64,000 nt of DNA, taken from Arthrobacter russicus (GTDB lineage Bacteria > Actinomycetota > Actinomycetes > Actinomycetales > Micrococcaceae). Shown piece after piece: positions 5,407 through 64,000 of the stretch. The notes below the pieces were generated by a model. The model was given only the letters and a program-made list of their open reading frames with translations. It searched no databases and was not told the origin of the DNA. The stretch lies in NCBI RefSeq assembly GCF_031454135.1, contig NZ_JAVDQF010000001.1:434001-498000 (forward strand), written 5' to 3'. A program made the position numbers and the translations under genes. How positions within the stretch are numbered: position 1 is the stretch's first letter; each line of letters begins with the position of its first letter.

Positions 5407-5479
5407 GCCCCGGTAGCTCAGCGGATAGAGCAGGAGCCTTCTAATCTCTTGGTCGCGGGTTCGATTCCCGCCTGGGGCA
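5407..5479 (+). tRNA. tRNA-Arg (anticodon TCT)
   Basis: A 73-nt cloverleaf. The acceptor stem GCCCCGG pairs with CTGGGGC (one G-U), the D arm is GCTC/GAGC, the anticodon loop CTTCTAA carries TCT, and the T arm GCGGG-TTCGATT-CCCGC is intact. The discriminator is A and CCA is not encoded. The base pair next to the anticodon loop looks mismatched (C/T). Confidence 0.92.
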
Positions 5480-22283: not shown

Positions 22284-22657
22284 CGGATGGGGCAGCCTGT
22301 ACGCCGGGTTCTGTTCCGCCGGACCGTTGCCGGTCCGGCGGCGACGATCATCCATCTACGGACGCCGTTGCCGACGCCCTCTAGCGGCCTACCCGGACAC
22401 TCGGGCGAGCAGCCCTCGAACGTGCCCTGTCTGGCCTTGCTCCAAGTGGGGTTTACCTTGCCTTTCCAGTCACCTGGAAAGCGGTGGTCTCTTACACCGC
22501 CGTTTCACCCTTACCTCTGCAAGCAGAGGCGGTCTGTTTTCTGTGGCACTGGCCTGCGGGTTGCCCCGAGTGGGCGTTACCCACCACCTTGCTCTACGGA
22601 GCCCGGACGTTCCTCGGGTTGTTCGCACAACACGCGATCGTCCAGCTGCCCCATCCG
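22284..22657 (-). ncRNA. rnpB: RNase P RNA, bacterial type A
   Basis: This is the catalytic RNA of RNase P, which matures tRNA 5' ends. On the minus strand the ends pair as P1 (CGGATGGGGCAGC with GCTGCCCCATCCG). The conserved cores are seen in order: GAGGAACGTCCGGGCTCC, ACAGAAAACAGACCGCC, GGTAAGGGTGAAA, AGAGACCACCG and GGCAAGGTAAACCCC. The length of about 374 nt suits actinobacteria. Confidence 0.97.
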
Positions 22658-33205: not shown

Positions 33206-34642
33206 TCAGTGGCTGTCCACTGCCTCGATTTCGCTCTTGTCTTCGCCCCAAAGCGTGTGGAAGGTACCTTCGGCATCTACCCGCTGGTAGGTGTGTGCTC
33301 CGAAGAGGTCACGCAGGCCCTGGGTGAGCGCCGCCGGCAGCCGGTCCCGCCGGAGCCCGTCGTAGTAGGCCAAAGACGCCGAGAACACCGGTACCGGGAT
33401 GCCCAGCTGCACCGCGGTGGCAACCACCCGGCGCCAAGCGGGCACCGCCTCGGCAATCGCCTCCGTGAAGGCCGGGGCGAAGAGCAGGTTCGCCGGCTTC
33501 GAATCGCCCGCGTAGGCGGCAGTGATGTCTTTGAGCAGCTCGGCCCGGATGATGCAGCCGCCGCGCCACAGCGAAGCGATTTCATCGAGCTTCAAATCCC
33601 AGCCGTATTCTTTCGCCGCCGCGGTCAGCATGTCCAGACCCTGGGCGTAGCTGACCAGCTTCGACGCGAAAAGCGCCTGCCTGACGTCTTCCACGAAACC
33701 CTCGCCGACGGCGATATCGGCTTCGTTTCCGATCAGCGTCTTCTGCGCCTCTTTGCGCTGTGCGGCTTGCGATGACAGGGCCCGGGCGAAAACCGACTCG
33801 GCGATACCGGAGGTGGGCGAGCCCAATTCCAGGGCCGAAATCACGGTCCATCGGCCAGTGCCTTTCTGGCCGGCCGCATCCACCACGACGTCGACGAACG
33901 GTTTGCCGGTTTTGGCATCGACGTGTCCGAGCACTTCAGCGGTGATTTCGATCAGGAACGAGGACAAAGTGCCTTTGTTCCACTCGCCGAAGATCTCTGC
34001 CTGTTCCGCCGGTTCGAGGCCCGCCGCGGAGCGGAGCAGATCAAAGGCTTCACCGATCACCTGCATGTCCGCGTATTCGATGCCGTTGTGCACCATCTTC
34101 ACGAAGTGCCCGGCGCCATCCGGGCCGATCCAGGCGCAACACGGCTTGCCGTCCACGTGCGCCGATATTTTCTCCAGCAACGGGCCGAGGGCCTGATAGG
34201 ACTCTTTGGAGCCGCCAGGCATGATCGACGGGCCGTTGAGCGCACCCTCTTCGCCACCGGAGACGCCGATTCCGACGAAATGCAGATCGTGTTCCGCCAG
34301 GGCAGCTTCCCGACGGCGGGTATCGGTGTAGTGCGAGTTGCCGGCATCGATCACGATGTCGCCCGGCTCAAGCAGCGGGACCAGTTGATCCACCACTGAA
34401 TCCACCGGGGCGCCGGCCTTGACCATGATCAAGACCCGTCGGGGTTTCTCGAGCGAATCCACCAGTTCCTGCAGTGTTTCGGTGCGGATGAAGTCGCCTT
34501 CGTCGCCGTGTTTGGCCAGCAATTCGTCGGTGCGCGCCACCGAGCGGTTGTGCAGGGCGACGGTGAAGCCGTTCCGGGCAAGATTTCGTGCCAAGTTGGC
34601 ACCCATGACAGCGAGGCCGGTGACCCCGATCTGTGCAGACAT
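33206..34642 (-). CDS. gnd: 6-phosphogluconate dehydrogenase, decarboxylating
   Basis: A 478-residue NADP-dependent enzyme of the oxidative pentose phosphate pathway, converting 6-phosphogluconate to ribulose 5-phosphate and CO2. The dinucleotide site is GVTGLAVMGANLARNLA; the substrate signature IGPDGAGHFVKMVHNGIEYADMQ includes the catalytic lysine, and GGCIIRA and YYDGLRRDRLPA follow. ATG 34642 with GGAGGAA upstream is used; the extra upstream frame is ignored. Confidence 0.97.
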   Translation of the reverse strand: MSAQIGVTGLAVMGANLARNLARNGFTVALHNRSVARTDELLAKHGDEGDFIRTETLQELVDSLEKPRRVLIMVKAGAPVDSVVDQLVPLLEPGDIVIDAGNSHYTDTRRREAALAEHDLHFVGIGVSGGEEGALNGPSIMPGGSKESYQALGPLLEKISAHVDGKPCCAWIGPDGAGHFVKMVHNGIEYADMQVIGEAFDLLRSAAGLEPAEQAEIFGEWNKGTLSSFLIEITAEVLGHVDAKTGKPFVDVVVDAAGQKGTGRWTVISALELGSPTSGIAESVFARALSSQAAQRKEAQKTLIGNEADIAVGEGFVEDVRQALFASKLVSYAQGLDMLTAAAKEYGWDLKLDEIASLWRGGCIIRAELLKDITAAYAGDSKPANLLFAPAFTEAIAEAVPAWRRVVATAVQLGIPVPVFSASLAYYDGLRRDRLPAALTQGLRDLFGAHTYQRVDAEGTFHTLWGEDKSEIEAVDSH

Positions 34643-34752
34643 TCTTCCTCCGTGGGTGATGTGGATCGGTTGTGCCTCCAGCCTAGCCTCCCCGGGACGG
34701 CCGCCCCGGTTCATGACCGAACCGGCGAATGTGACGTTGCCGACCACCGAAT

Positions 34753-34836
34753 TTGCTTCGTATACGATCACCTGTATATTTATCTATGGCCTCCAGGTCT
34801 GGCATCCCCCAATAGTCAGAGCTGGAGGCCACTTTT
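34753..34836 (+). ncRNA. Candidate short structured RNA 1: promoter plus hairpin with ATCCCCCAAT loop
   Basis: TTGCTT (34753-34758) and TATATT (34775-34780) with 16-base spacing form a good sigma-70-type promoter. Six bases downstream begins a 10-bp perfect stem, TGGCCTCCAG (34787-34796) with its complement at 34822-34831, followed by CTTTTGTGT. The loop region holds ATCCCCCAAT at 34804-34813. A transcript of about 50 nt ending at the hairpin is inferred. It lies in the 389-base gap between gnd and a PAP2 gene, which holds no convincing protein gene. See the sister element at 34909. Confidence 0.5.
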
Positions 34837-34908
34837 GTGTCCGAGGCGGCTATTCGGCGATCTACTCGACTAACTTCGACAAGTTTTCTGCAACACGCCC
34901 CTCGCGTC

Positions 34909-34992
34909 TTGCACACCAGCAGATCGTGGTTTATATTTTTCAGTAATGGCTCCCGGCCGTCGTATCCCCCAATGACGACGGCCGGGAGCCAT
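34909..34992 (+). ncRNA. Candidate short structured RNA 2: promoter plus hairpin with ATCCCCCAAT loop
   Basis: TTGCAC (34909-34914), a 17-base spacer and TATATT (34932-34937) give a strong-looking promoter. Eight bases on begins an 18-bp perfect stem (arms 34946-34963 and 34975-34992) whose 11-base loop is ATCCCCCAATG. The loop matches element 1 exactly over ten bases while the stem sequence differs. There is no T tract after the hairpin. The PAP2 gene starts 40 bases downstream, so this could be its leader or an independent RNA. Confidence 0.5.
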
Positions 34993-35031
34993 GTCTATCT
35001 GCAGCTCATCCGCCACCGGCATCATCGTCAG

Positions 35032-35565
35032 GTGAAACCTTCCCTGGCCCGCATCGTCACCGAGGCATTCGCCCCCACCGTACTGGTATCAGTTTTCCTG
35101 CTCGGCAGCGGGGCCGCACGGGACGGTTGGCGCGGATTGCTCTTCGGGTTCATCGCAGCGATCTTCGTGGCACTCGGCCCATTTCTGGGCATTCTCATCG
35201 CAGCGCGGAGCGGAAAGCTCACGGACCACCACGTCGGGGACCGCAAGCAACGGCTGCCGGTGCTGATCGGCAGCCTGGGCAGCGCCGCGATCGGCTTCGT
35301 CGGACTCCTGTCCACAGCACTCGGCATGATCGTGGTCGGCGCGGTGAACGCCTTCTGGAAACTCTCCGTGCACAACGCGGTGGCGGCATTCGTCGCGGTG
35401 GCCACAGTCGGCAGCTTCGGCTGGGCCTGGGCACCGCTCCTGCTCTTGCCCCTCGTCATCGGCTGGTCCCGGGTGGTGCTCAAGGACCACACGGTGGCCC
35501 AAGTCATCGCCGGCGTGCCTGCGGGCGCGCTGGTCGCGGTGCCTTACATCTTGGCTGGCGTCTAG
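35032..35565 (+). CDS. PAP2-superfamily membrane phosphatase-like protein
   Basis: A 177-residue membrane protein with about five TM segments. PAP2 phosphatase motifs are recognisable though divergent: KLTDHHVGDRKQR (motif 1), SVHNAVAAF (motif 2, SxH) and WSRVVLKDHTVAQVIAG (motif 3, SRxxxxxH). It should dephosphorylate a lipid or polyprenyl phosphate at the membrane. GTG 35032 is chosen because the longer frame runs through the upstream hairpin; its ribosome-binding site is weak. Confidence 0.75.
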   Translation: MKPSLARIVTEAFAPTVLVSVFLLGSGAARDGWRGLLFGFIAAIFVALGPFLGILIAARSGKLTDHHVGDRKQRLPVLIGSLGSAAIGFVGLLSTALGMIVVGAVNAFWKLSVHNAVAAFVAVATVGSFGWAWAPLLLLPLVIGWSRVVLKDHTVAQVIAGVPAGALVAVPYILAGV

Positions 35566-35679
35566 CGTCCAGGGCGACGCCCGAACCGGGCACGGCAACC
35601 CGCTTCGACCGCGACAATCACTTCCGACAGACTCGGACCGGGATTCGGCGTCTTGCGCCCCGGGAACCCAACCAGTCAG

Positions 35680-36402
35680 TCAGGGGTGCCCCGCGGATTG
35701 CCGCCGGACCATTTCCCGGATCCAGACCGGCGCGAACGGCGAGGTGCAGTTGGCCGGCGTCGGATAGTCCTTCAGGACTTCGAGGCGCTCCCCGAGGTCG
35801 ATGGCCCGCGCACGAAACTCGGCATGTGCAATCCCCAGCTGAGCCAGGCAATTGTTCATCGACCACTGCAACCGGTCCGGCGCCTCTTTCATCTCGGCTT
35901 CGATGACGTCCAACAGTTCGGCGAGGTCCAACCCCTCAGGCGCCTTGACCACGCGTTCGGCAGTCAGTGCCCAGCCGCCACTAGCGATCACCGGATCCGG
36001 ATCAAGCAGCCACTCTCGCCGCAAAGCCTCGGCGTGCGGACTCTTTTTCACCACATAGTTGATCAACCAGTCATGCACCTTGGGGACCCGGGCCGACCGG
36101 AGCATGACGTCCAGTTGCTCCCGGGAAAACGATTTCGGCCGGCAGATCAGGATCGCCAAGAGCCTGGCCGCGGTGTCACCGGTCCGCCACAGCTCCGGAA
36201 CAAGTTCCGGCTGTTTTTTCAAGCGCTTGGCCAGAGCCCGGAGCTCACCGAGGTTGACTCCATGGTCATCACCGTGGCGCAGGTTCACCGCGCGCACCTT
36301 TGGGTCTTCGAGCACCGCCAATTCGGCCATCACTTGAGACGCCGTCGACTCGGCCACTTTTCGCACCTCCGGTAGGACATCCAATAGCCCAAGCCTACGC
36401 AA
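35680..36402 (-). CDS. DNA alkylation repair family protein (AlkD-like superfamily)
   Basis: A 240-residue helical protein containing AVNLRHGDDHGVNLGEL, LWRTGDTAARLLAILICRP, VHDWLINYVVKKSPH, DPDPVIASGGWALTAERV and RLQWSMNNCLAQLGI, which match the family commonly annotated as DNA alkylation repair protein in actinobacteria. The conserved DYPTPANCTSPFAPVWI tail is typical. It is distinct from the AlkD-like gene at 9.8 kb. The enzymatic activity of this subfamily is not well established. Confidence 0.8.
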   Translation of the reverse strand: MRRLGLLDVLPEVRKVAESTASQVMAELAVLEDPKVRAVNLRHGDDHGVNLGELRALAKRLKKQPELVPELWRTGDTAARLLAILICRPKSFSREQLDVMLRSARVPKVHDWLINYVVKKSPHAEALRREWLLDPDPVIASGGWALTAERVVKAPEGLDLAELLDVIEAEMKEAPDRLQWSMNNCLAQLGIAHAEFRARAIDLGERLEVLKDYPTPANCTSPFAPVWIREMVRRQSAGHP

Positions 36403-63403: not shown

Positions 63404-63461
63404 GGCTGGATCCTATCCCCCGGATCGGCCACCGCCGAGCCGGATCTGCTAACCTCGGATC

Positions 63462-63556
63462 ATCCACACGGGTGCCCTTGGCAAAGGGCTGAGATCAGGC
63501 CGATACCGCCTGCGACCGTTCGAACCTGTCCGGGTCATTCCGGCGAAGGAAGTAGG
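63462..63556 (+). promoter_or_regulatory. TPP riboswitch (thi element)
   Basis: The thi-box core is present: ACGGGTGCCC, GGGCTGAGATCAGG, then GACCGTTCGAACCTG and CCGGGTCATTCCGGCG with AAGGAAG. It ends about 10 bases before the thiC ATG, so thiamine diphosphate binding probably masks the ribosome-binding site. Confidence 0.95.
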
Positions 63557-63566
63557 AAACACCATC

Positions 63567-64000
63567 ATGTCTGCTGCCCAGATTCACGATTCCGGCAACA
63601 ATCACCCAGCCCATTCGCTCGGCTTCCTCGAAGCCGGCGAGCTGCGCGTCCCGGTCACCCGGATAGCTTTGGACGATTCGCCGGAGGGGCCCAATCCGGA
63701 CTTCGTGACTTATCGCACCGCAGGACCTGGCAGCGATCCGGTGCGCGGTCTGCCGCCGCTGCGCGCTGAGTGGGTTGCCGCCCGCGGCGACGTGGAAACC
63801 TATCCGGGCCGGCGTCGCGACTTGTCCGACGACGGCCGCTCAGCGGTCCGGCGCGGTGCGGCTTCAGCGGAATGGCAGGGCGCCAAGCCGGAACCTCGGC
63901 GTGCCCTGCCCGGCCGGCGGGTGACCCAAATGCATTACGCACGCGCCGGCGTCGTGACCAAGGAAATGCAGTTCGTCGCGCTGCGCGAGGGCTGCGAGGT
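63567..64000 (+). CDS. thiC: Phosphomethylpyrimidine synthase ThiC, 5' part (cut by window)
   Basis: The first 144 codons of a radical-SAM enzyme that converts aminoimidazole ribotide to HMP-phosphate. The visible part holds the N-terminal region ([40 protein letters not shown]) and [20 protein letters not shown], which is characteristic. The catalytic domain and the C-terminal cluster cysteines lie outside the window. ATG 63567. Confidence 0.95.

Follow-up and report, generated by a model that had tools for sequence, protein, structure and literature searches.

Hairpin RNAs with a constant C-rich loop in Arthrobacter and related genera, probable one-hairpin relatives of 6C RNA

Two short hairpins with a common C-rich loop, each preceded by a promoter of its own, are arranged in tandem in the genome of Arthrobacter russicus and represent a real, conserved RNA element. 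They are probably 6C-like small RNAs (sRNAs) that have one hairpin per gene and fall outside the Rfam definition of the 6C family. The reading preferred here, held with moderate confidence, is that the units are minimal sRNA genes, derived from 6C RNA, whose C-rich loop would pair with G-tracts at ribosome-binding sites (RBSs). The titles and abstract beginnings found in the open literature under Arthrobacter 6C, Renibacterium small RNA and actinobacterial C-rich sRNA contain no description of these units.

The window, i.e. the entire 64,000-nucleotide stretch of A. russicus DNA that was analyzed, has both units on its plus strand, in the intergenic region bounded by gnd on the minus strand and a PAP2-like open reading frame (ORF) on the plus strand; the Pfam score of the latter, 26.2 bits, is slightly below the cut-off of 27.2. 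The promoter of unit 1 (34753-34780), read from the sequence, is composed of TTGCTT (34753-34758), a 16-nt spacer and TATATT (34775-34780). It is followed by a hairpin at 34787-34831, which is supported by its fold, by its match to the covariance model R1 described below and by covariation. The promoter of unit 2 (34909-34937), likewise read from the sequence and conserved in position, contains TTGCAC (34909-34914) and TATATT (34932-34937) separated by 17 nt, and the hairpin, supported by its fold and its R1 match, occupies positions 34946-34992. Both hairpins carry an 11-nt loop with the decamer ATCCCCCAAT, a putative pairing seed, at 34804-34813 in unit 1 and at 34964-34973 in unit 2. The two loops are 160 nt apart and are common to stems that are otherwise unrelated. 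The initial annotation had described two such units here, with TTGC(TT/AC)-16/17-TATATT promoters and the same loop sequence in both, and all of this was confirmed at the positions given. Its description of the stems is correct for unit 2, which has 18 bp, and incomplete for unit 1, where the supposed single perfect stem of 10 bp is continued by a G/G mismatch and another 6 bp, one of them G-U.

The minimum free energies of the hairpins are -31.0 kcal/mol for unit 1 and -39.5 kcal/mol for unit 2 (z-scores of -5.2 and -7.8), and none of 200 shuffled sequences folded as well as either of them. The R1 scores are 60.4 and 66 bits, respectively, both hairpins being among the model's own sequences. 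An Rfam scan of the window also located a class A RNase P RNA (22284-22653, minus strand) and a TPP riboswitch (63458-63568, plus strand); three tRNAs are found at 5407, 15215 and 40432.

The decamer ATCCCCCAAT occurs five times in the A. russicus genome, three times within a hairpin, and the reversed decamer does not occur in it. The stem scores of 83 distinct decamer sites, read in this genome and 58 others, are bimodal, with 18 sites at 13 or above and 65 at 8 or below. A score of at least 13 was found at 267 of 249,345 background positions, which include real copies, and about 0.1 such site would be expected among 83. Among the 18 high-scoring sites, 17 have stems that close at identical positions of the loop. 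The 65 exact decamers with low scores lie outside hairpins and were set aside. The third loop-bearing hairpin of the A. russicus genome (L005, 2365209-2365253) is a long one and, as read in the same-species copy L189 (genome G121), is positioned directly after an alanine dehydrogenase gene. It has no -10 hexamer at the usual place.

R1 was built from 17 hairpins; another hairpin, L062, was left out on account of its different closing. The loop sequence ATCCCCCAAT is invariant in the 17 model sequences, which were chosen for that loop. Double changes are present at all 17 stem pairs, and 93.1% of the cells are paired, compared to 62.3% in shuffled sequences and at most 48% when the pairing is slid. 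None of 500 shuffles attained any of five covariation measures. A further 52 distinct sequences of 45 nt show double changes at all 16 pairs, with 96.4% paired cells against 73.6% in shuffles, although these sequences were found with a structure model and are therefore biased towards pairing. Five of 500 shuffles equaled them on one of the five measures, the number of pairs with a double change. Fifteen distinct matches of other lengths were left out of this count.

At an E-value of 1e-4, R1 matches 74 of the 295 genomes of the family, belonging to 9 of 32 genera, with one to three matches per positive genome. All seven genomes of the window's genus are positive. At E 0.01 there were matches in 10 of 37 relatives, including 6/6 of the genus, and one of these matches is weak (G049, E 0.0069). 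Absence of the loop motif from close relatives that keep the surrounding genes had been named at the outset as an observation that would speak against a functional RNA; the motif is kept in 7/7 genomes of the genus. The proposal of a functional RNA with a constant loop and re-paired stems is thus supported by conservation, by covariation and by the promoter placement described below.

A 19-nt core pattern was also searched in named genomes, a stem score of at least 11 being counted as a hairpin. Among the 80 core-pattern loci listed, 75 have a hairpin, and the five that do not are in records not named Micrococcaceae. The 75 hairpin loci among those listed belong to Arthrobacter, Pseudarthrobacter, Paenarthrobacter, Renibacterium and one Micrococcaceae record. 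Paenarthrobacter aurescens TC1 carries the hairpin (L210). The tandem pair of genome G121, which is of the window's species, is repeated letter for letter in L195, a metagenome-assembled genome named Renibacterium sp. RGIG571.

For the analysis of gene neighborhoods, 134 model matches were reduced to 120 by dropping 14 (seven repeats of the same place in another locus, five cases of the same hairpin on the opposite strand and two isolated weak matches, L114 2336 and L138 2828), and near-identical sequences were then merged, resulting in 113 distinct copies. The main neighborhood class comprises 91 of them, a second class 11, and the remaining 11 are in other places. In the main class, gnd, IclR, GntR or related genes are on the left, and a small gene that weakly matches DUF6504, together with a Sir2 or exonuclease-like gene, is often on the right; the gene calls are crude and the exonuclease-like gene was assigned by eye. 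A search of relatives for such units between gnd and the PAP2 gene had been suggested. The units adjoin gnd in 7/7 genomes of the genus. PAP2 is beside the gnd-side units solely in the window's species and in genome G002, and is therefore not part of the system.

The right neighbor is convergent in 78 of the 91 main-locus copies and the left neighbor is divergent in 70. With the right gene pointing at the hairpin and the left gene pointing away, the hairpins in most loci are not parts of the neighboring mRNAs. Of the 91 copies, 90 have a TANNNT -10 hexamer 6-9 nt ahead of the stem, compared to a mean of 13.6 and a maximum of 25 in shuffled sequences, and it is exactly TATATT in 76 of the 90. 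TTGNNN is present at a spacing of 15-19 nt in 69 of the 90 (mean 10.9 and maximum 19 in shuffles). These promoter counts do not represent independent trials, since related sequences were compared and the shuffling was done letter by letter. The -10 hexamer before the stem and the convergent right gene suggest that the copies are stand-alone transcription units. The two promoters of the window are weak by consensus, and a promoter scan reported one site, that of unit 2 in another register, with 9 of 12 positions.

The fixed position and strand of the hairpin relative to the promoter in 90/91 copies, together with the conserved neighborhood, argue against a dispersed DNA hairpin that has no RNA function, such as a REP-like element, a mobile repeat or a cruciform protein site. 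Strong inverted repeats at different places in one genome, copies on a phage-type contig (L547) and a copy beside mobile-type genes (L143) are what such an element would produce. However, a REP-type repeat has many copies with conserved stems, whereas the A. russicus genome contains three copies with unrelated stems and positive genomes generally have one to three matches. This explanation is highly improbable.

Two tandem units are held by 27 of the 64 main-class loci, the units being 111-283 nt apart. It could be imagined that the pair is read from the first promoter as one longer RNA and constitutes a stretched two-hairpin 6C RNA, given that the units are on the same strand, that no strong terminator follows unit 1 of the window and that 6C RNAs string together two or three hairpins of this type. 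The varying spacing in the 27 tandem loci, the promoter of unit 2 and the single match in each of genomes G001 and G003 make this very improbable.

The last hairpin of a 6C RNA is an intrinsic terminator. In the main copies studied here, the T fraction of the first 12 nt behind the stem is 0.37, compared to 0.18 at 30-60 nt, and TTTT follows the hairpin in 25/91 main-locus copies. Neither window unit has a proper U-tract, and no run of five T follows either hairpin in the window sequence. A terminator scan of positions 34000-36000 called none, but it takes loops of 3-8 nt only and would miss loops of 11 nt. T-runs that end several copies (9/11 in the second class), the location of the third A. 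russicus copy after the alanine dehydrogenase stop codon and the same-strand ORF that overlaps unit 2 and continues past it would all be compatible with terminators or stabilizers of 5' leaders, the PAP2 mRNA then beginning with unit 2. Yet a terminator requires neither a fixed loop nor a promoter of its own 6-9 nt ahead of it, a convergent downstream gene (78/91) leaves no mRNA for which the hairpin could be a leader, and PAP2 accompanies the gnd-side units in the window's species and G002 only. A role of this kind is improbable.

The second class consists of 11 distinct copies in genera g10 and g20, among them loci L042, L168, L170, L171, L177, L178, L181 and L154. There is no -10 hexamer at the stem. 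The gene next on the right is csoR-, copZ- or copA-like in 8 of the 11 copies, one csoR-like protein being confirmed by Pfam and the other neighbors being assigned by clustering or by eye. Several g10 copies have a common upstream block, AAAGCGAAAGTA...TTATTCG, and a -10-like hexamer, TAAGCT, is found about 30-40 nt before the hairpin in several copies of both genera. Of the 11 copies, 9 have TTTT behind the hairpin. This class looks like longer sRNAs that end in the same hairpin.

Copies are also found on mobile-type DNA. A phage-type viral contig, with terminase-, portal- and capsid-like ORFs assigned by eye, carries a full hairpin with the loop GTCCCCCAATA (L547:9047-9063), and a second viral contig (L545) carries an imperfect copy; nothing comparable is present on the remaining three viral contigs that were found. 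In genome G242, a hairpin with the GTCCCCCAATA loop (L143:2043-2087) is located near a gene for a single-strand-binding protein (identified with PHROGs) and a metallopeptidase-like gene (assigned by eye). None of the plasmid and phage records searched for the L143 hairpin has it. A phage-borne copy of the host sRNA seed is possible.

The 52 further sequences all keep four C and one A of the loop, and the other positions of TCCCCCAATA are conserved to at least 90%. The loop has 11 nt in most copies and the stems vary freely. Loop variants include GTCCCCCAATA in genus g25 and AACCCCCCAATG in g7. The number of C is five in the two units of the window, six in several of the g7 copies and in L186 and L153, seven in L166 and four in both units of L150. 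A hairpin with the loop AATCCCCCAAA is found in genome G023 (L182), about 1.6 kb from a gene that is 45% identical to the PAP2-like ORF of the window.

A conservation that extends past the C-tract into AAUA/G, and a loop size that is fixed in most copies with free stems, are also what would be expected of a loop recognized by a protein. A protein partner had been the initial alternative to antisense action. Such hairpins would titrate an RNA-binding protein by means of their identical loops without pairing to mRNA, as CsrB and RsmZ RNAs titrate CsrA, and several short stand-alone copies would fit a decoy. On the other hand, 6C/B11 RNA has the same kind of loop and acts by base pairing, the AAU part of the loop is also explained by UUGGGGGA targets, and to our knowledge no C-loop-binding protein has been described in this group. 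A protein-binding site is regarded as unlikely but possible.

In the preferred reading, in which the units are sRNA genes acting by base pairing, a housekeeping-type promoter would start the RNA at the first base of the long hairpin or 0-2 nt before it, and the RNA would end at the hairpin or soon after, giving a length of about 50-60 nt. The stem might present and protect the 11-nt loop A/G-U-CCCCC-AAU-A/G. The seed in this loop would pair with UUGGGGGA-like G-tracts in or near the RBSs of several mRNAs and so repress translation, in the manner of the mycobacterial 6C/B11 loops, which are likewise C-rich. A tandem arrangement could double the dose of one seed or provide two sources of it under separate control. 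The antisense action on RBSs that had been suggested initially is thus proposed by analogy with these better-known RNAs. In Mycobacterium abscessus, the repression of eccB4 by B11 acts on the 5' UTR/RBS of the gene, either C-rich loop suffices and compensatory changes restore repression (PMC10470900). In M. marinum, the C-rich loop of the terminator hairpin is the decisive seed of 6C/B11 (PMC12395582). Since one loop is enough for repression by 6C/B11, a single hairpin of this type should in principle be enough as well.

The evidence from candidate targets is a sequence correlation. The pattern TTGGGGGA is present 2-12 nt before ATG at 67 sites in the seven genomes of the genus, compared to 18 for the reversed pattern and 44 for the control ATGGGGGT. 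As this last control is poorly matched, two more, VVGGGGGA and AAGGAGG, were made. The sites read were 62 distinct ones of the 67 in the genus, 50 of 88 for VVGGGGGA, 27 of 28 for AAGGAGG and 50 of 74 in other genera. ORFs of at least 120 residues were scored for a signal peptide by a rule of our own, the genus set covering seven genomes and the controls the A. russicus genome only. A signal peptide is predicted in 18/31 ORFs following TTGGGGGA, compared to 3/24 following the other GGGGGA sites and 2/15 following AAGGAGG (p = 0.0007 and 0.005, respectively), but the test followed the observation of the enrichment, and false positives had prompted a tightening of the rule, so that these p-values are optimistic. 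With the first, looser rule the counts were 16/30 compared to 6/26 (p = 0.03) and 6/15 (p = 0.53). In the A. russicus genome alone, 4/6 ORFs after TTGGGGGA have a signal peptide (p = 0.016 and 0.03 with the same controls). The enrichment in secreted proteins is absent from four hairpin-positive genomes of other genera (3/22), and the link to the secretome therefore does not generalize.

Genes for a secreted Ig-domain protein in three species (L383:551-1399, L393 and L399) have TTGGGGGA at the RBS with differing flanking bases. The predicted energies of the loop-target duplexes, -14.9 to -16.4 kcal/mol compared to -6.1 for a generic Shine-Dalgarno pairing, follow from the chosen pattern and provide no separate evidence. 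In genome G005, an Lsr2-family gene (L402:412-741) has ATTGGGGGAA immediately before its ATG.

The relationship with 6C RNA is apparent from the loops rather than from the Rfam model. The 6C family had been named as the nearest known kind of RNA, and a covariance search including its model had been recommended. The Rfam 6C model gave no match in the window at the gathering score and none at the locus up to E 10, and no score at the locus reached the 47 bits used as the threshold for membership in RF01066. The only Rfam matches of the locus up to E 10 were sub-threshold ones to miRNA and frameshift-element families. The best 6C match elsewhere in the A. russicus genome (29.4 bits, E 0.107) is not convincing. 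Across the family, 6C is found in 28 of 295 genomes at E 0.01, 16 of them above the family cut-off, mainly in genus g6, also in g11, and in one genome each of g10 and g23. The loops of the 6C matches in the sister genera g6 and g11, ATCCCCCAAG, ATTCCCCCAAG, ACCCCCAATG, ACCCCCCAATG and ATCCCCCCATG, are near-identical to those of the hairpins studied here, and the loop AACCCCCCAAC is also found at 6C loci of family genomes. Conversely, R1 finds a hairpin of its own kind in 17 of 27 6C-type loci (E ≤ 0.013), eight of the 17 having the same score and sequence. The common loops in sister genera uphold 6C as the nearest known kind of RNA. The 6C-type loci L083, L307 and L338, and by eye also L085 and L086, carry at least three consecutive hairpins with C-rich loops instead of two.

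The distributions of 6C and R1 matches are complementary (Fisher p = 0.005) in a comparison that involves related genomes and two different thresholds, and counting by genus gave no signal. G130 (g10) is the sole genome of the 295 in which, at these thresholds, an R1 hairpin occurs together with a 6C match (C10:137480-137556, 44.6 bits). No shared neighbors were found between the first eight 6C loci compared and the loci of these hairpins. Of 21 6C loci, eight have a distant homolog, with 28-38% identity, of a gene located close to the G005 units, two have a 44-residue match to the IclR-type protein and one has another weak match. These homologs were taken as paralogs, and tblastx gave scattered noise, so that shared synteny was rejected. 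Judged from the sequences, descent from 6C is likely, and convergence on a C-rich loop is possible. In the case of descent, 6C-type hairpins would have been reduced to one per promoter in the Arthrobacter/Renibacterium group.

A more far-reaching picture can be drawn tentatively, and with more doubt than belief. The units could belong to an undescribed sRNA system of Arthrobacter and Renibacterium that amounts to a 6C RNA split into one-hairpin genes with separate promoters and a constant 8-nt seed, and that consists of the tandem pair and the loci upstream of csoR-type genes or after ald. In Renibacterium, this system might be wired to the RBSs of secreted and surface proteins, and it might have been copied by at least one phage that then uses the seed of its host. 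If the preferred reading is true, a base-pairing sRNA needs no more than one hairpin, one constant loop and its own promoter. The Arthrobacter group, for which no described 6C-like RNA was found in the literature searched, would gain a defined regulator for which both a seed and a rule for its targets are predicted. Stems that vary freely around a fixed loop would offer a clean system in which to test what loops of the 6C type recognize, and the Rfam 6C model would be seen to miss a large related set.

Several known systems have features in common with these units. In sRNAs of the type of Xanthomonas sX13 and staphylococcal RsaA and RsaE, a C-rich loop is the seed for G-rich RBSs. Those RNAs are multi-stem molecules, whereas the units described here are single hairpins, and the likeness is one of description. 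The decoy RNAs CsrB and RsmZ resemble the units in having repeated small hairpins with one constant loop, but the loop is of the GGA type and the stems are within one long RNA. The closest likeness is to 6C RNA (RF01066; B11 in mycobacteria and cgb_03605 in Corynebacterium glutamicum), which is also a short actinobacterial RNA with C-tract loops on hairpins. A 6C transcript has two hairpins; the window also has two on one strand, but a separate promoter precedes each of them. The units appear to have one hairpin per promoter, are 111-283 nt apart, mostly have five C in an 11-nt loop, lack an Rfam model match at the locus and have no clearly common gene neighborhood with 6C loci. About six C per loop is usual for 6C; the 6C RNA of C. 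glutamicum has eight (PMC4046766), and the loops of the 6C matches in the sister genera have five or six.
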